The notes: generated by a model from the letters alone, not told the origin. DNA of 7,505 bases from a bacterium (GCA_030429345.1 JAUIFJ010000064.1:1-7505), one strand, 5' to 3'; positions 3 to 7,505 are shown, counted from the stretch's first letter. Translations and numbers: made by a program.

Positions 3-3000
3 TACGCGATCGAGAAGTTTCCGCCCCAGCCGCTTCACCCCGCCTGCCGCTGCACCCATGTCCCGGCGCCCGGATCCCTGGATCAGATCAAGGACTTGCC
101 GGCCATCCAGGACTTGGTGACGAAGCACACGCTGGGCCAGCAGGCGGTGAAGCAGGCGCTGAAGACTGGCGACTTTTCCGCCCTGACAGTCCGGCAGCTA
201 CGCGAGCTGGCCAAGCAGAAGGGGATTCCGATCTCCCGCTCCAAGGCCTACCAGGTCCAGCTGCTTGCTGATGTCTCCAGCCTTGATGTGTCACACCTGC
301 AAGGCCTGAGCACCGCGGAGTTCAAGCAGCTGCTGAAACAGCACAAGGTCAGCCCGATCAAGTCCCGCGAGGACCTGGTGAAGGACCTGCTGGGCGAGGG
401 GGCGGAGAAGCATGCGGCCAAGCTGGCGGCGCTGAAGCAGGCGGAGAAGGCGGCAAAGGAAGCGGCGGAGAAAGCCAAGATCGCGGCCCAGAAAGCCGCC
501 GAGGAAGCGAAGGCCAAGCAGGAAGCCACCGAGTTGATGTACTCCAAGGTGGGCAAGCTGGTTGAGGCCGCGAAGCCCGAGACTTTCGATGCGTATTACG
601 CGGCTGCCTACGAAGTGGGGGCCGTCCTGGAGAATGCACAGAAGGTGCTGGGCATCGAGGCGCTCAAGCCGTTCAAGGTCCAGATCGCCAAGGCCTACGA
701 TGGTTTCCTCGCCTCACTGAAGGGCATGAAGCAGAAGCAGCTGCGTGATCTGCTCAAGGCACACGGGGTCAAGAACTTCCAGTGGTACACGAAGGAAGAG
801 ACCCTGTCCTACATCCTGAACCCGGAGAAGCGGCCGGAGCTAATCGCCCAGGTGGCTCAGAAGCTGAAGGCGGTGAAAGCGAAGAACGCGGCGAAGAAGG
901 CCGCGAAACCCAAGCCCGTGCCGCCGGAGCCCAAGGCCCCGGTGATCCAGTTGGCCAACCAGGCGGATCAGGAGTGGGAGGCCCTCAAGGACGGCAGCAC
1001 CTTCGTCTACGACGGCGACGCCCGCAGCCTGGGCGGCGCGCACAGCAAGTACTTTTTTCGTGATGCGGAAGGCAACCGCTGGCTGTTCAAGCCGATTGCC
1101 GAGGAGTTTCGCGCCTGGGGCGATGAGGTGGCCTACCGGATCCAGCGGGAGATTGACCCCAACGCCGTGGAAGCCCGATTCATCCGTCTGGAGGTGAAGG
1201 GCAAGAAACTGGCTGGCTCGATCCAGCGGATGAAGACCGGGCTGAAGGAAGTCAGCGACTACGGCGGCCTGGGGCTGGACACGCTGCAGGCGGAGGAGCT
1301 GCTGCAGCTGCAGCGTGAGCACGTCATCGACTGGCTGATTTCCAACCACGACAGCCATGTGAACCAGTTTCTGCGCGCGCAAGATGGGAAGGTATACGGC
1401 ATCGACAAGGGGCAGCTGTTCAAGTTTTTCGGCAAGGACCAGCTGAACCTGACCTACTACCCCAACCGGGTGCACAATGCGGGCGAGCCTGTGTACAACC
1501 AGCTACTGCGCCTGCACCGGGACGGGAAGATCCAGCTGGATCTTGGAGCCACGGAAGAGTTCATTCGGCGCGCCCAGGCCATTACGGACAGCGCGTACAA
1601 GGAGATGCTCAGGCCCTATGCGGAGCGCCGGTTCGCGGGCCAGCCTGGAGCCTTGGCCGACTTCCTGAGCGGGGCCGTGAAGCGCAAGCAGACGTTGCGT
1701 GAGGACTTCGAGCGCCTGTACAGCGAGGTGGAATCCGCGAGGACGGGAAAGAAGGTGACCTTCCGCTTCGGGGAGAAGGGACCCGCGGCACCGGCACCCG
1801 CTGCGCCAGCGGATGCGCCTGAGCTCACGTGGGGCCGCGACGCCCGTTTCGACCTGTCACACGAGGTCAAGGAAATTCGGGACAACGGCTGGCAGGGCAA
1901 GTCCCTGGGCATCGATTCGGATCAGATCGAGGACCAGAATGTCCTGGTGCGCGAGGTCCTGCTGCCCGGGGGTGGGAAGCGCACGATGATGGAGCTGCGG
2001 CTGCGCCCAGAGGCAGACCAGCGGCTGACAAAGTTGCTGAAGCAGCAGGCGGGGCACTTGCCATCCGAAGTGTATACGGACGACTATTGGCATTCAATCC
2101 TGAATGCCGCCAAGACCGTGAACCATCATCTGTCTGATCTGGGATTCAATGACGGTACGATCAATGACATGCTGTCTCACGGCCCAGCCCTTCAAAAGCT
2201 GTTGAAGTCGGGGAATGTGGTTGAGCGGAAAATGGCTGAGCAGTATCTGGACGCCATGGAGAAGATCCAGCAGAAGGTAACTCAGGCCCGGGCTGGAAAG
2301 TCGCCGGATCCGCTGCCGATCCTGAAGCAGTTCCAGGCGGACCCCAAGGACCTGAAGACTCTGAGCAAACCGGTGGCAGCGGATCCGGAGTACACAGTGA
2401 CCGTGCGCGATCGTGTGACAGCGGACCGCACCCGCGCCAAGGGCGATCGCCTGGTGCTGGAGAAGGACAACGTGCCGCTGAGCGAGTTCGATCACCGGTT
2501 GGCCGACCAGGCGGCGGAGTTCGAGGTCGACCTGGGAGACGGCATTCAGGTGGTCTATCGCCCTTACCGCAGCCTGACCCAGCAGCATCTGTTCGCAGTC
2601 CAGGGGCGGATGACCGTGCGCGCCGCTGGCGAGGTCAGCGAGGCCCGGGTGGCCCAGGCGCTGCAGAAGCTGCAGAAGCTGGGGCTGGACACCACGCCCT
2701 CTACGGCGGCTCAGGAAGAGCTGATGTATTTACAGAAGACGGCCTACGCCGCCAACATCGATCAGACGCCGCTGTTCCAGCAGGCGGCGGCCCGGGCGGC
2801 AGGGGCGGAGTCCACGGAGGCCGAGGTCGCCGTGTGGCGCGAGGCCTGGTCGTCCCAGCTGGGCGTGCCGGATGTGACCAAGCTTCCGGCCTACAAGCCC
2901 CAGGGCCACTACCAGTATTCCACGGTGCGCGGGGCCGGCAGCCAGGGCGGGATCCGGGTGCAGGAGCGCTTCGACCTGGACGACAAGACCTTTCAGAAAT

Positions 3001-3533
3001 CGATGAAGGGGCATGTGCTGGTCCACGAGATCACGAAGGGGGATATCGAGGAGTTTTTCGAAGTTGTGCTGCCGACGAACCGGGCCTTCGTTCCCACGGC
3101 TGATCGTTTCACCGCCGGTGTGCCCATCGGCGGCATGAGTCCCGGTTCCGACATGAACACCGGCGGCGCCAGCTACTTCTTCACGCGCATCAAATCGCGC
3201 AGAAGTCTGGGCGGGGATCAGATTCGGTTCAAGATCGACATGCTGAAGCGCGCGGACGCCATCAGCTATCCCCGCGACCTGTTTGGTCGTGTGACAGGAA
3301 CAACAGTGCGGGACAACCGGCGCAGCGACCTGGCGGGTTTCAAGGCCAACGCGAGGTCCTCGAGCAATGAAACGGATTTCAAGGGGCCGGTCACCATCCT
3401 GGATAATCTGGACTCGATCGGTGTGCGCAGCCCCTTGAAACGTGATCGACTCCTGAAGACATTCCGCAAGAATGGTATTACGGTCCTGCCGGATGGCAGG
3501 GCCATTGAAGATGTGATTGTGGTGGCCAATTGA
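3..3533 (+). CDS. MuF-type minor head protein with SAP-like repeats, HipA/PI-kinase-like domain and C-terminal ART-like region (5' partial)
   Basis: The frame is open to the left edge, so the N-terminus is missing; 1176 residues are visible. The TTG at 96 is not a credible start because in-frame coding continues upstream. Codons 30-60 encode PLHPACRCTHVP, the conserved C-terminal signature of Mu gpF/SPP1 gp7 (MuF) portal-associated head proteins. Next come SAP-like helical segments at about 183-270, 306-398 and 717-824, with an Ala/Lys/Glu-rich helix at about 400-560. At about 987-1620 lies a HipA/PI-kinase-like domain: GGAHSKYFF loop, Lys in WLFKP (1089), NHDSHVNQ catalytic loop (1344-1367) and metal-site Asp in GIDKG (1404). 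A Pro/Ala linker at about 1775-1825 leads to an unrecognised middle. The last 180 or so residues hold GGASYFFTR (near 3171) and NETDF (3366), which may be an ADP-ribosyltransferase-like core. MuF is secure, kinase likely, ART speculative. The usual gpF/gp7 protein is far shorter, so this resembles MuF polyvalent/effector fusions. It overlaps the next gene by 4 bases. Confidence 0.85.
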   Translation, partial: YAIEKFPPQPLHPACRCTHVPAPGSLDQIKDLPAIQDLVTKHTLGQQAVKQALKTGDFSALTVRQLRELAKQKGIPISRSKAYQVQLLADVSSLDVSHLQGLSTAEFKQLLKQHKVSPIKSREDLVKDLLGEGAEKHAAKLAALKQAEKAAKEAAEKAKIAAQKAAEEAKAKQEATELMYSKVGKLVEAAKPETFDAYYAAAYEVGAVLENAQKVLGIEALKPFKVQIAKAYDGFLASLKGMKQKQLRDLLKAHGVKNFQWYTKEETLSYILNPEKRPELIAQVAQKLKAVKAKNAAKKAAKPKPVPPEPKAPVIQLANQADQEWEALKDGSTFVYDGDARSLGGAHSKYFFRDAEGNRWLFKPIAEEFRAWGDEVAYRIQREIDPNAVEARFIRLEVKGKKLAGSIQRMKTGLKEVSDYGGLGLDTLQAEELLQLQREHVIDWLISNHDSHVNQFLRAQDGKVYGIDKGQLFKFFGKDQLNLTYYPNRVHNAGEPVYNQLLRLHRDGKIQLDLGATEEFIRRAQAITDSAYKEMLRPYAERRFAGQPGALADFLSGAVKRKQTLREDFERLYSEVESARTGKKVTFRFGEKGPAAPAPAAPADAPELTWGRDARFDLSHEVKEIRDNGWQGKSLGIDSDQIEDQNVLVREVLLPGGGKRTMMELRLRPEADQRLTKLLKQQAGHLPSEVYTDDYWHSILNAAKTVNHHLSDLGFNDGTINDMLSHGPALQKLLKSGNVVERKMAEQYLDAMEKIQQKVTQARAGKSPDPLPILKQFQADPKDLKTLSKPVAADPEYTVTVRDRVTADRTRAKGDRLVLEKDNVPLSEFDHRLADQAAEFEVDLGDGIQVVYRPYRSLTQQHLFAVQGRMTVRAAGEVSEARVAQALQKLQKLGLDTTPSTAAQEELMYLQKTAYAANIDQTPLFQQAAARAAGAESTEAEVAVWREAWSSQLGVPDVTKLPAYKPQGHYQYSTVRGAGSQGGIRVQERFDLDDKTFQKSMKGHVLVHEITKGDIEEFFEVVLPTNRAFVPTADRFTAGVPIGGMSPGSDMNTGGASYFFTRIKSRRSLGGDQIRFKIDMLKRADAISYPRDLFGRVTGTTVRDNRRSDLAGFKANARSSSNETDFKGPVTILDNLDSIGVRSPLKRDRLLKTFRKNGITVLPDGRAIEDVIVVAN

Positions 3534-4033
3534 GTGCAGCGATTGAAGCACGGGATGAGCTCCAGAAGTATACGGATTCCCTCTTCGGTGAATTCGGGCT
3601 AACACTGTATGTAGATTTTCAGGATGGATCACAGAATCTTCGCAACTATCTAGGTGGAGTTCGCGTGCTACGAGCGACACCCATCTATGACCGGAGCAAT
3701 GGCAGTATTCAGAACTTCCGCTACCTGATGATGTTCGTGGATCAGGGGGTGATTGACCTGGTGAACGCTGGAAATCCGGTGCATGTCTTTGAGTGTGAAG
3801 TGACGAAGCAGATGGTGCAGTCTTGTTGGCTTCGCGAAGTGGATGGCCCTCTGGCCTTCCTGCTTTCAAAGAATGATCCCCATTCCCTGTTTGAAGAGCA
3901 GGCGGCTATCTACACCCAGTGGGACCAGGAGCTCGCGCGCTTCGGCGGGCAGGAAAAGCTGGACCAGCGGCTCGACGAACTGGCGGCCCGCCAGCTGAAG
4001 GATTGGGAGTGGCACGAGAGGCACAACCAATGA
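3530..4033 (+). CDS. Unrecognised 167-residue protein, candidate immunity/accessory protein
   Basis: I do not recognise the family. The frame starts at TTG 3530 within a TTGA overlap with the stop of the preceding gene, which implies translational coupling; no ATG or GTG in this frame lies near, and the upstream GGTGG is only a weak ribosome site. The protein looks soluble and cytoplasmic: no signal peptide or membrane helix. The first two thirds look alpha/beta, with hydrophobic strands such as YLMMFVD and FECEV. The C-terminal third is helical and highly charged, ending near KDWEWHERHNQ. Base composition is about 50% GC over most of the gene (about 40% around 3601-3660), well below the flanking structural genes, and continues the drop seen at the end of the upstream gene. 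The position directly behind an effector-like C-terminus fits an immunity protein, but that is inference only; a phage accessory protein is equally possible. Confidence 0.75.
   Translation: MSAAIEARDELQKYTDSLFGEFGLTLYVDFQDGSQNLRNYLGGVRVLRATPIYDRSNGSIQNFRYLMMFVDQGVIDLVNAGNPVHVFECEVTKQMVQSCWLREVDGPLAFLLSKNDPHSLFEEQAAIYTQWDQELARFGGQEKLDQRLDELAARQLKDWEWHERHNQ
4016..4032 (+). promoter_or_regulatory. Ribosome binding site that fixes the ATG at 4030
   Basis: GAGAGG at 4016-4021 lies 8 bases before ATG 4030. This decides the start of the 102-residue gene. The same frame is open upstream to at least 3919, but there it overlaps the end of the preceding gene and encodes an Arg/Ala/Gly-rich sequence typical of an out-of-frame shadow. 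Confidence 0.65.
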
Positions 4034-4338
4034 CCGTCAGCTACTTCTATGTGCACGACATCGAGTCCGGCCGAAAAGCCCCTATCGGTGCCTGGATTGT
4101 CGACCAGGACAACGCCTTCCACTATGTCTTCCATCCTGACTACTATTTCTCGGATGAGCTGACCGCCTCTCATGTGATCGATCGCATGATCGAGGAGAAC
4201 CAGGACACGGTGGCCGAGGGCTTTCTCGAGTACTGGCAGCAAAATGTGGGCTACTACCGCTCGGCCACGGAGATCCATACTGAAACCGTAGACGACCTGC
4301 AGCTTTTCCTGGACCGGATGCAAAAAGCCGTCAACTAG
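4030..4338 (+). CDS. Unrecognised small acidic protein (102 aa)
   Basis: I do not recognise this protein. It starts at ATG 4030 in an ATGA overlap with the preceding gene, with GAGAGG 8 bases upstream, and ends at TAG 4336-4338. It begins MTVSYFYVHD, is rich in Asp/Glu and aromatic residues (FHYVFHPDYYF), and its second half looks helical. It has no signal peptide, no membrane segment and no Cys. The small size, acidity and coupling to the upstream gene fit a small binding or inhibitor protein, such as a second immunity-type or anti-host factor, but nothing in the sequence shows a target. The gene ends the tightly overlapped block; a 77-base AT-rich gap follows, so this may be the end of an inserted accessory cassette within the head operon. 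Confidence 0.8.
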   Translation: MTVSYFYVHDIESGRKAPIGAWIVDQDNAFHYVFHPDYYFSDELTASHVIDRMIEENQDTVAEGFLEYWQQNVGYYRSATEIHTETVDDLQLFLDRMQKAVN

Positions 4339-4415: not shown

Positions 4416-4434
4416 ATGCTTTTGTGCGAGACGG
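4396..4434 (+). promoter_or_regulatory. Alternative hairpins over the methyltransferase start
   Basis: Two inverted repeats share bases. GCTAC 4396-4400 pairs with GTAGC 4410-4414 around a 9-base loop. GTCTCG 4405-4410 pairs perfectly with CGAGAC 4427-4432, extendable on both sides by G-U and A-U pairs to about 10 pairs (4403-4412 with 4425-4434). The second hairpin places ATG 4416 in its loop and ends just before the in-frame GTG 4434 and ATG 4437. The two structures exclude one another, which could tune initiation. No good Shine-Dalgarno precedes either ATG. The pairing is seen in the sequence; regulation is inference, and chance is possible. Confidence 0.35.
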
Positions 4435-7358
4435 TGATGCCTTTTCTGACCGTGGAAGCCGCCCTGTTTCCCGAATTGTGTGCCGAGGCCAAGGGGCCTC
4501 CCATTCATGGCGTGCAGTACATCGGGAACAAGCGCCAATCTCTTGATTGGATCCGGGCCCAGGTTCCGGACGGGGTGACGCGCGTGGTCGACGCCTTCTC
4601 CGGCGGGGGCAGCGTCTCCTACATGTTCAAGCGCGAGGGATACCATGTAATCGCCAACGACTCCCTGAAATGGCCCTGGCACATCGCACGGGCCACCGTG
4701 GTCAACCAGGGCCAGAAGGTGAGTGAGGATGAGGTGAAGGCGCTGCTGGAACCGAATCCGAAAGCCGGCAGCTGGGCGCGCACGCACTACAAGGGCAAGT
4801 TCTGGAAGCCGGGGGTCCACCAGCTGGTGGACGAGATCCGCGAGAACGTGGACGCCCTGAAGGGCTTCAAGCGCGACATCGCGCTCGCCGCCTTGGGCGC
4901 CACCATGCTCTCGGCGCGCGGCACTTTTCCCCAGTTCACGGTGCCGAAGATCGGTGATCGCGCATATACGCCTAAACAGTTCAAGGCGCGCTACGCCCAG
5001 GTGATCCAGCGGCTGAACTCGATGGTGTTCAAGGGCCCCAAGGCCGAGGCCCGCTGTCTGGACGTGCGCGCTCTGCTGAAGACGGTCAAGGCCGATGCCG
5101 TGTACTTCGATCCCCCCTATGTGTCCGGCATCCTGACCCACAACTACAGCTACTACTACCACGCGGTGGAAGCGGTGATGGTGAAGGGCGAGGGCAGAAG
5201 CCCGGATCCGGAGACCGCGGGCTCGACGGAGAAGACCCAGGAGAGTCTGGGCAAGAAGAACATCGGCCCGTTCTTCGAAGAGCTCTTCGCCGCGGCCGAG
5301 CACATCCCCACCTGGCTGTTGTCCTACCGGGACGCGGCCTTCCCTTCCGAGAAAGAGCTCAAGGAGCTGATCACGGCGGCAGGCCGCGAGGTCGACCTGC
5401 AGTCCCGTGAGCACGAGTACACGATGGCCGGGACGAAGCGGGGGGGAGCGCCGTCAAAGGCGAAGGAACTGCTCTTCATCGGCCGGAAGGGTAAGCAGGC
5501 GAAGAACACGAAACAGAAAGCGCCGGCAGCAGCGGCCAAGGCAACGACGAAGGAGGACCCGAGGATGAAAGTGCCGAGCATTCAGCTGGCCGCGCAGGCC
5601 GCGTCCCTGCCCGAGGACTACTGGACCGGTGAAGCACGCGCCATCGTGGCCGAGCACGGCTGGCCGGGCCTGGCCCTGGCCTGTGCCGTGGTCGACGCGG
5701 ATCACCCGGGCTGCGAGCTGGAGGACGGGCTGCCCAAGGTCTTCGAGGCTTACCACCTGCCGGTGATGCAGCGCGCCGAGAACGGGGAGCTGAAGGTGCT
5801 GCCCGCTGTCGTGGATTCCGCGCTCGCCACGCTGGCGGATGCCGCTGGCTGCCCGCGTCTGCCGGCCCAGGCACTCTCCCTGGCGGAGCAGAAGCTGCAG
5901 TCCCTGAAGGACTGGGGCCTGGCCTGCGAGGCCGTGGACGCCTTCGCCAGCCTGTCCGAGGAGGAAACCCAGGGGGTGGCGGCCCCGCCGGCGCCAGTGG
6001 TTCCCGAGGGCAATCAGCTGCTGGCCATCGCCGGCAGCGGACCCCGTGTGCTGCCCATGCTCTCGAAGGCCCAGCTGGTGGCCGTGGCGGCCAAGGAGGA
6101 CGAGGAGGGCGATCACGCCATCAAGTTCATCCTGTGTCACGCCGGCACCAACAAGAACGGCGACCACTTCACGGCCGACGAGCTGAAGAAGGCGGTCAAG
6201 TCCGCGGCGGGCGTCAAGATCAACCTGAAGCACGGCCAGCAGGCGCAGGACATTGTCGGCAAGACCGAGAAGGCGTCCTTCGAGGACACGGACGGCGGCC
6301 GCATCGTCTGCGCCGGCCGGCTGTTCACCAAGGAGGATGAGCTGGCGGCCAAGGCGCGCCGGCTGATCAAGGAGAACATCATCACTAAGGTCTCGATGGA
6401 GTGCAGCTACACCGAAGGCGAGTGCTCCGTCTGCGGCGAGACCTACAAGAATTTCGACGAGCGCTGCGAGCACTTGAAGGAGAGCAAGGGCGGCACCGTC
6501 GACGGTAAGGAGGTCTACGCCATCCTGAAGGGTGTGACGTTCAGCGGCGCCGGCCTTCTGGAGGGCTACGAGCCCGCCGATCCCCGGGCGGATATCACCT
6601 CCATGGCCTGGGAACGCGACGGCCGCATGCACGCCATGTCCTACGGGATCTACGGTCCCAACGACAAGCCCGAGTCCATGAAGGAGGTGCTGAACCAGGA
6701 AGAGATCCGCGAGGACCTGTGGAAGACGCAGGACGCCTTTCGCCGGGTCACCGATTCCCTGGTGATGTCCTTCGTCAAGGAGAGCAGCGAGCTCTCGGAC
6801 GTGGAGACCAAGCTGAAGAAAGCGGGGGCCGACTTCGCCAGCCGCGTGATCCAGATCCTGAAATCCATCAACACCAACACGGACAAGGAGACCGCCGTGG
6901 ACAAGAACACCCAGGCCAAGGCCGGCAAGCCCCTCGAGGAGATGACCCAGGAGGAGCTGCTGGCGCACACGAAGCAGCTGCAGGAGAAGGCGGACGCCGA
7001 CGAGAAGGTCCGCCAGGAAGCCGAGGCCAAGGCCGCGGCCGAGACCCTGGTCCAGCTGATGGAGAAGAAGGGCCGCGAGTTCGAGAAGGCCGAGGCCCGC
7101 GAGGCCGAGGTGACCAAGCTGGCCGCCATGACCGAAGAAGCCCGCCAGGCCGTCACCGACACCTGGTCGGCCCTGCCGGACAAGCAGGTCGAGGATTCGG
7201 CCGCCGCTGCCGCCGGCACGGCGCGCGCCAACGCCGAGGGCGCAGCCCCCACGGCCACGCCCGACGGCGAGCCCCAGACCCTGGGCCAGAAGCTGGCCAT
7301 GGTCTGCAATGCGAGCTACGAGGCCCGCGAGGGCATGACGGCGACCGAGAGCAAGTAG
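4416..7358 (+). CDS. Fusion: D12-class N6-adenine DNA methyltransferase + prohead protease + coiled-coil scaffold
   Basis: One 980-residue frame with no internal stop. Residues 1-355 are an adenine-N6 methyltransferase of the Dam/D12 class: YIGNK (35-39, motif X), DAFSGGG (59-65, SAM-binding motif I), FDPPY (231-235, catalytic motif IV), then LLSYRD and the terminal strand ELLFIG. A basic, Ala-rich linker spans about 356-383. Residues 384-565 form an unrecognised domain. Residues 566-760 resemble a capsid-maturation serine protease, with likely catalytic His606 in INLKH and Ser660 in KVSMECS, followed by a C-x2-C-x10-C-x-H cluster (670, 673, 684, 686) that could bind zinc. Residues 839-920 are an Ala/Glu/Lys-rich coiled coil, as in protease-scaffold proteins. 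ATG 4416 is the outer start; ATG 4437 is an alternative, and both have weak ribosome sites. A strong internal start exists at 5565. The methylation target is unknown; GATC is a guess. Confidence 0.85.
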   Translation: MLLCETVMPFLTVEAALFPELCAEAKGPPIHGVQYIGNKRQSLDWIRAQVPDGVTRVVDAFSGGGSVSYMFKREGYHVIANDSLKWPWHIARATVVNQGQKVSEDEVKALLEPNPKAGSWARTHYKGKFWKPGVHQLVDEIRENVDALKGFKRDIALAALGATMLSARGTFPQFTVPKIGDRAYTPKQFKARYAQVIQRLNSMVFKGPKAEARCLDVRALLKTVKADAVYFDPPYVSGILTHNYSYYYHAVEAVMVKGEGRSPDPETAGSTEKTQESLGKKNIGPFFEELFAAAEHIPTWLLSYRDAAFPSEKELKELITAAGREVDLQSREHEYTMAGTKRGGAPSKAKELLFIGRKGKQAKNTKQKAPAAAAKATTKEDPRMKVPSIQLAAQAASLPEDYWTGEARAIVAEHGWPGLALACAVVDADHPGCELEDGLPKVFEAYHLPVMQRAENGELKVLPAVVDSALATLADAAGCPRLPAQALSLAEQKLQSLKDWGLACEAVDAFASLSEEETQGVAAPPAPVVPEGNQLLAIAGSGPRVLPMLSKAQLVAVAAKEDEEGDHAIKFILCHAGTNKNGDHFTADELKKAVKSAAGVKINLKHGQQAQDIVGKTEKASFEDTDGGRIVCAGRLFTKEDELAAKARRLIKENIITKVSMECSYTEGECSVCGETYKNFDERCEHLKESKGGTVDGKEVYAILKGVTFSGAGLLEGYEPADPRADITSMAWERDGRMHAMSYGIYGPNDKPESMKEVLNQEEIREDLWKTQDAFRRVTDSLVMSFVKESSELSDVETKLKKAGADFASRVIQILKSINTNTDKETAVDKNTQAKAGKPLEEMTQEELLAHTKQLQEKADADEKVRQEAEAKAAAETLVQLMEKKGREFEKAEAREAEVTKLAAMTEEARQAVTDTWSALPDKQVEDSAAAAAGTARANAEGAAPTATPDGEPQTLGQKLAMVCNASYEAREGMTATESK
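5550..5567 (+). promoter_or_regulatory. Strong internal Shine-Dalgarno and in-frame ATG at the methyltransferase/protease junction
   Basis: AAGGAGG at 5550-5556 lies 8 bases before ATG 5565, which is in frame with the long fusion. It is the best ribosome site in the window, and it falls at the linker between the methyltransferase and the protease part. It therefore argues for independent initiation of the protease-scaffold. The ATG sits in an ATGA whose TGA is in the +1 frame, the form of a normal stop/start overlap. Confidence 0.7.
5565..7358 (+). CDS. Probable separately initiated prohead protease-scaffold (597 aa), nested in the fusion
   Basis: Starting from ATG 5565 and its AAGGAGG site, this product would begin MKVPSIQLAA and contain an unrecognised domain of about 180 residues, the protease (His223, Ser277 in this numbering), the Cys/His cluster and the C-terminal coiled-coil scaffold. 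This is the expected architecture and gene position for a capsid-maturation protease-scaffold, directly before the next head gene. The protease forms inside the procapsid, and this family typically trims capsid and scaffold proteins. Known: the herpesvirus-like/HK97-type protease fold uses a His and a Ser in the INLKH and VS-type strands. Seen: both motifs in the right order. Not shown: whether cells make this form, the fusion, or both. Confidence 0.6.
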   Translation: MKVPSIQLAAQAASLPEDYWTGEARAIVAEHGWPGLALACAVVDADHPGCELEDGLPKVFEAYHLPVMQRAENGELKVLPAVVDSALATLADAAGCPRLPAQALSLAEQKLQSLKDWGLACEAVDAFASLSEEETQGVAAPPAPVVPEGNQLLAIAGSGPRVLPMLSKAQLVAVAAKEDEEGDHAIKFILCHAGTNKNGDHFTADELKKAVKSAAGVKINLKHGQQAQDIVGKTEKASFEDTDGGRIVCAGRLFTKEDELAAKARRLIKENIITKVSMECSYTEGECSVCGETYKNFDERCEHLKESKGGTVDGKEVYAILKGVTFSGAGLLEGYEPADPRADITSMAWERDGRMHAMSYGIYGPNDKPESMKEVLNQEEIREDLWKTQDAFRRVTDSLVMSFVKESSELSDVETKLKKAGADFASRVIQILKSINTNTDKETAVDKNTQAKAGKPLEEMTQEELLAHTKQLQEKADADEKVRQEAEAKAAAETLVQLMEKKGREFEKAEAREAEVTKLAAMTEEARQAVTDTWSALPDKQVEDSAAAAAGTARANAEGAAPTATPDGEPQTLGQKLAMVCNASYEAREGMTATESK

Positions 7359-7420: not shown

Positions 7421-7505
7421 ATGTTCAACAACTCCCACCCCGGTGTCGAGTACGGCGACGGCGTCCTGAAGGGCCCGGGGGTTCCCGGACTGGGCGTCAA
7501 GCTCG
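7421..7505 (+). CDS. Start of next structural gene (3' partial), probably capsid decoration or major capsid protein
   Basis: Only 28 codons are present, starting MFNNSHPGVEYGDG and continuing past the right edge. The Gly/Pro-rich start has no signal peptide. The identity cannot be read from so short a piece. The call rests on position: in head modules of this order (portal, MuF, protease-scaffold), a decoration or major capsid protein usually follows, and the strong GAAGGAG site fits high expression. Confidence 0.6.
   Translation, partial: MFNNSHPGVEYGDGVLKGPGVPGLGVKL

Follow-up and report, generated by a model that had tools for sequence, protein, structure and literature searches.

The locus raises the question of whether a DNA adenine methyltransferase (MTase) and a capsid maturation protease-scaffold, read in one frame on a bacterial contig, belong to a single virion protein and, if so, whether such a protein would bring the MTase into the assembling phage head. 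The window, i.e., the whole stretch of DNA analysed, represents an entire 7505-base contig (C86) of a 4.24-Mb bacterial genome; all features given below are on its plus strand. The gene in question (4416-7358) comprises 980 open codons with zero stops and encodes, in this order, a D12 MTase, a linker module, a maturation protease and a scaffold-like tail. Its likelier start is the ATG at 4437 (MPFLTVEAALFPEL), as judged from the conserved N-terminus MxFLTVEAALFPEL.

Domains and gene neighbourhood

The D12 class N6-adenine DNA MTase domain (4500-5549) was matched by Pfam PF02086 (MethyltransfD12) at residues 35-249 (E 6e-22; 79 bits vs. a gathering cutoff of 22) and by phrog_27806 at residues 29-378 (8e-126), and a PDB sequence search gave one weak match, DpnM (2dpm, 0.0017). 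Motif I (DAFSGGG) is located at 4590-4610 and the catalytic motif IV (DPPY) at 5109-5120. By its profile and motifs, the domain is assigned to the D12 class of N6-adenine MTases, with DNA adenine methylation as the predicted activity. Counts of GATC showed no depletion of this site in these phages, which gives no sign of past restriction at GATC and does not identify the target site of the enzyme. The DPPY motif was intact in every MTase domain of the family that covered this region, second copies included, which makes it highly improbable that the MTase fold mainly serves the protease in DNA binding or assembly, with catalysis being secondary, even though such a structural or DNA-tethering role would account for the obligatory covalent link described below.

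The MTase is followed by a module of approximately 140 residues (5565-5975). Comparison of the junction sequences by eye revealed its counterpart (AYHLPYRK...DGKL..VWRG...) at the equivalent junction in five other loci (L030, L031, L041, L042 and L046), which ruled out a private insertion of the window. In the fusion family the linkers are variable and flexible-looking. A short conserved motif, H-T-[TS], was observed between the last MTase and the protease core, immediately ahead of the latter (ACHTSIPVEI, NHTTVIGDIRL and NCHTSVPVDI among the junctions of L032-L053); it is a candidate for either an autocleavage site or an N-terminal strand.

The protease domain (6102-6638) was poorly visible to single-profile scans (phrog_3017, 0.004; phrog_18299, 0.3), apart from phrog_27806 (8e-46). 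Single-sequence scans with the protease found no relatives, the wider family being reached only with alignments that included outside relatives, and the PDB sequence search with this domain produced nothing meaningful. The protease region of one relative (L005) matched gp19 of Bacillus phage G (7e-8) and the 'capsid maturation protease' of Gordonia phage Stormageddon (6e-4). In a 42-sequence alignment the invariant columns included N-x-N, D, F, one His, one Ser and three zinc-knuckle Cys residues. The invariant His (6231-6233; H73 of the domain) and Ser (6393-6395; S127 of the domain) are inferred to be catalytic, and the zinc-knuckle residues of the window are C6423, C6432, C6465 and H6471. 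The AlphaFold2 model of the domain had a mean pLDDT of 81, with the core above 90, and showed the fold of T4 gp21 and herpesvirus proteases: T4 gp21 was the best match among solved structures, at Z 11.3 and an rmsd of 2.5 over 126 residues, and the herpesvirus assemblins came next (Z 7-11). The top PDB matches obtained with Foldseek were likewise T4 gp21 and the herpesvirus proteases, and among predicted viral structures many prohead proteases, together with phage G gp19, ranked first. Once relatives were added, the assignment of the second half to capsid maturation proteases became firm on alignment and model, and cleavage of scaffold or capsid proteins is its predicted function.

The remaining C-terminal region (6645-7358) is predicted to form long helices, which were the best-scoring stretch of a poor full-length AlphaFold2 model (pLDDT 36, from 7 sequences), and residues 738-912 of the fusion weakly matched phrog_3017, a head maturation protease profile. 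A scaffold role would fit these features. Altogether, the PF02086 match, the DPPY motif and the protease domain established with its relatives confirmed what the sequence-only reading had seen, namely both sets of motifs within one continuous frame.

In the relatives, the gene order was TerL, portal, a giant MuF-type protein, two small genes, the fusion, a decoration-like gene, MCP, sheath, tape measure and more tail genes, with an integrase adjoining the terminase. By this conserved order of head genes, the MTase occupies the place that a maturation protease has among the structural genes. The window starts within the giant MuF-type minor head protein (3-3533; C-terminal part with a SAP domain, phrog_6577), a full-length copy of which (L079:5939-10348) matched minor head and head morphogenesis PHROGs. 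Two small genes without assigned function (3530-4033 and 4030-4338) lie between it and the fusion, with counterparts at the same place in the viral contig L020. Downstream, the window ends within the start of the decoration-like gene (7421-7505; MFNNSHPGVEYGDGVLKGPG), cut by the contig end. The same small gene, with the motif HxGxxYGDG, was present downstream in the relatives, at most about 140 bases after the fusion in nearly all fused loci with sequence at this place, and the major head protein (phrog_2522) was confirmed downstream in two lineages. No sigma-70 promoter was matched near the fusion gene, and the Rfam scan gave no match. The giant MuF-type protein, 1469 aa long in a second copy of the region (C62, see below), has a SAP domain and weak similarity to HipA_C; the phage may have in it a second head protein equipped with effector domains.

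Conservation of the fusion

The genome set represented the host phylum with five genomes. A second copy of the fusion was found in the source genome (C62): it was 94% identical to the window at the DNA level and had the same frame, which could be followed for 824 residues up to the contig end. Another genus of the same family carries the fusion twice (G002, contigs C87 and C100; 863 and 861 aa), and two IMG/VR viral contigs, L020 and L021, contained intact fusions of 853 and 852 aa. The dN/dS values were 0.04 for the MTase and 0.07 for the protease between the window and C62, and 0.05 and 0.21, respectively, between the two G002 copies; both halves are under purifying selection. The fusion sought in related phages was thus found, and a stop between the domains in all close relatives, which would have spoken against it, was not observed, the relatives keeping the frame. 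An assembly or indel artefact was ruled out by the presence of the same frame in C62, in the G002 copies and in the IMG/VR contigs, and a chance open frame is excluded since the fusion is conserved with purifying selection acting on both of its parts.

Several further observations were made in these genomes. The source genome (G000) contained no fewer than three partial copies, closely related to one another, of the prophage head region on separate short contigs (C86, C62 and C90; L079, L080), which are several related prophages split by the assembly. A decayed remnant in a further genome (L011, G003:C275) kept the MTase half (390 aa) and lost the protease half, with a transposase-like reading frame downstream. 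Beyond the integrase end of the prophage on G002:C100 (L078:14614-17095), genes similar to a cytosine-C5 methyltransferase and Vsr, with unusual base composition, were noticed by eye.

The IMG/VR database was scanned with a profile built on the protease only, the sequences from phage G and the Gordonia phage included, and the MTase therefore had no influence on which loci were found. Loci qualified if their protease was at least 42% identical to that of L020 and enough upstream sequence was available. A D12 MTase was found in the protease's own open frame in 25 out of 25 such loci: 15 had two tandem MTases, five had one, three were cut by the contig end, and two had two MTases with a broken frame. 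The 15 tandem fusions ranged from 1166 to 1393 aa stop-to-stop, and the presence of two D12 domains in tandem members was confirmed independently by Pfam. Four further loci (L045, L054-L056) started inside the fusion gene. No MTase was present in the 4 kb around the 20 distant relatives of the protease (up to 32% identity), and in the protease tree the 28 fused sequences formed a single clade (100/100), apart from the unfused ones. The fusion is, hence, no error; it is a conserved trait of a large and divergent viral family.

The two MTases of the tandem members, MT1 and MT2, formed two separate clades (100/100), indicating that the tandem arrangement has been kept over a long divergence; the single MTase of the window grouped on the MT1 side of the tree, a placement to be taken with caution because of long branches. 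Two otherwise tandem fusions were irregular: one (L036:3074-3076) had an in-frame TAG, with part of the second MTase missing, and the other (L031:2678-2970) a frame change inside or around the second MTase, a pseudogene, a programmed event and an assembly error being the candidate explanations. One viral contig of 133 kb (IMGVR_UViG_3300001567_000262) harbored two complete tandem MTase-protease genes (L047 and L052) approximately 88 kb apart.

A possible internal start at the domain boundary

The window possesses a Shine-Dalgarno sequence, AAGGAGG (5550-5556), 8 nt before an in-frame ATG at 5565, exactly at the domain boundary (the whole site spanning 5550-5567), and this site is shared by C62. 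It is a possible start of a separate protease-scaffold of 597 residues, in agreement with the sizes given by the sequence-only reading, i.e., either one product of 980 residues or two of about 380 and 597. The site is the joint strongest of 64 in-frame sites in the open frame of the window. In L020, L021 and each of the two G002 copies, AAGGAGG precedes an in-frame GTG at the domain boundary by 5 nt; in all six sequences of the window clade the internal start was among the strongest of the 44-64 in-frame sites per open frame. Internal starts have a precedent in lambda, in which Nu3 is made from within C. Judging from these signals, the internal ribosome site in the window clade probably also yields an extra, MTase-free protease-scaffold, and the fusion could be the minor product there, given that the strong internal start is conserved.

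Most of the other fused members (e.g., L034, L035, L037, L038, L039, L047, L048, L051 and L052) had no usable start at the junction, and the fusion protein must consequently be made in most members of the wider family; the junction sequences argue strongly that it is. An internal start was, therefore, rejected as the whole explanation for the family. The possibility that the frame holds two proteins, of which the one started at ATG 5565 would be the working protease-scaffold, the long frame mainly expressing the MTase with an inert tail, draws on the strong Shine-Dalgarno sequence with an in-frame start at the domain boundary in all six window-clade sequences. It appears improbable, as it cannot explain the members lacking the site; moreover, in a GC-rich genome AAG GAG GAC is likely to be a coding sequence for Lys-Glu-Asp anyway.

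Possible function and relation to known systems

Maturation protease-scaffolds co-assemble inside procapsids (T4, HK97, herpesviruses), and on this basis we infer, with a probability of roughly 0.55, that the scaffold-protease carries the MTase into the procapsid, so that methylation would protect the phage genome when packaged or on entry. In these temperate contractile-tailed phages, one conserved virion gene joins the maturation protease and scaffold to one or two N-terminal D12 MTases. In the proposed sequence of events, the N-terminal MTase would enter the procapsid together with the co-assembling protease-scaffold; the protease would then trim the scaffold and perhaps the junction, so that the MTase, either freed or kept, might stay beside the genome in the head. 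The phage DNA could then be methylated by it in the head or upon ejection and so be shielded from host restriction, and tandem MTases may widen the set of protected sites, two target sites being suggested by their belonging to separate clades. In a more specific and tentative version, somewhat less probable than the general one, the protein would act as a self-processing cargo carrier, which brings one or two MTases into the procapsid and releases them in the head, the genome being methylated during packaging or entry.

The main rival of the procapsid reading is cytoplasmic modification by a late gene. In this case, the MTase would methylate the replicated DNA before packaging, and the fusion would do no more than make the amount and timing of the enzyme follow those of the late structural operon; the MTase would either be cut off by the protease or stay outside the head. 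Free Dam-type MTases are common on phages and plasmids, and the variable, flexible-looking linkers are compatible with processing. However, a separate gene in the operon would suffice for this purpose, yet all close relatives whose gene is undamaged and complete at the 5' end have the covalent link, which makes the cytoplasmic alternative the less likely one. For carriage into the procapsid, in turn, a covalent fusion does not by itself prove that the MTase gets into the capsid or remains there. The sequence-only reading had expected a fusion to place the MTase inside the head; it was right in that the fusion is real, free of an indel artefact and must be made in the wider family, but the placement in the head is not yet supported.

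The family is already represented in PHROG 27806 (798 positions), as residues 1-778 of the fusion in L035 aligned to positions 1-790 of this profile, and in the window the profile matched the MTase, the protease and, weakly, the scaffold parts. Its only label there, 'DNA methyltransferase', mentions neither the protease half nor the fusion. We found no report of an MTase-maturation protease fusion in the open-licence papers searched, in line with the initial impression that no standard arrangement of this sort was known, and an earlier description elsewhere is possible; in the text of PMC5512222 a prohead protease is named only in the reference list. It appears that the parts are known, and that the fusion architecture, its tandem form and its spread are undescribed.

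On the protease side, gp19 of Bacillus phage G and gp13 of Stormageddon share with the window the N-x-NGD-x-F motif, the His, VSMxC and the CSxC zinc knuckle, and also the locus between the portal and head genes, but they have no MTase attached and are only about 20-25% identical to the window. The distant unfused protease of Stormageddon (L026:3845-7114; 1089 aa) has a large C-terminal part without assigned function, and this type of protease may carry other cargo domains too. T4 gp21 and the herpesvirus assemblins share the fold and the His-before-Ser order but are remote in sequence (up to 17%) and, to our knowledge, have neither a zinc knuckle nor an MTase.

On the MTase side, phage MTases usually act as free enzymes in the cytoplasm; the known example from a phage head, DarB of phage P1, is a cargo protein in its own right and is coupled to an ATPase. 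In the divergent viral family described here, the MTase, frequently present as a tandem pair, is part of the capsid-maturing enzyme. Its entry into the head, if it occurs, would couple methylation to capsid assembly, and the timing and place of the protective marks would become directly testable; the fusion also suggests a natural route for targeting enzymes into capsids via a protease-scaffold. DarB, an adenine MTase-helicase carried in the head, protects the injected DNA in cis against type I restriction, and in polyvalent proteins MTases are joined to further domains (Iyer et al., 2017; PMC5512222). A review that covers the whole P1 Dar system calls its mechanism unclear (PMC12707154). Similar to these proteins, the MTase of the window is in one polypeptide with other predicted virion domains and in a late-gene context. 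The fusion may work like DarB; nevertheless, DarB pairs its MTase with a SWI2/SNF2 ATPase and not with a maturation protease, and the window fusion was not filed as a DarB homologue because its open frame contains no SWI2/SNF2 domain. Should the self-processing carrier prove true, it would represent a form of antirestriction based on the virion and different from P1 Dar.
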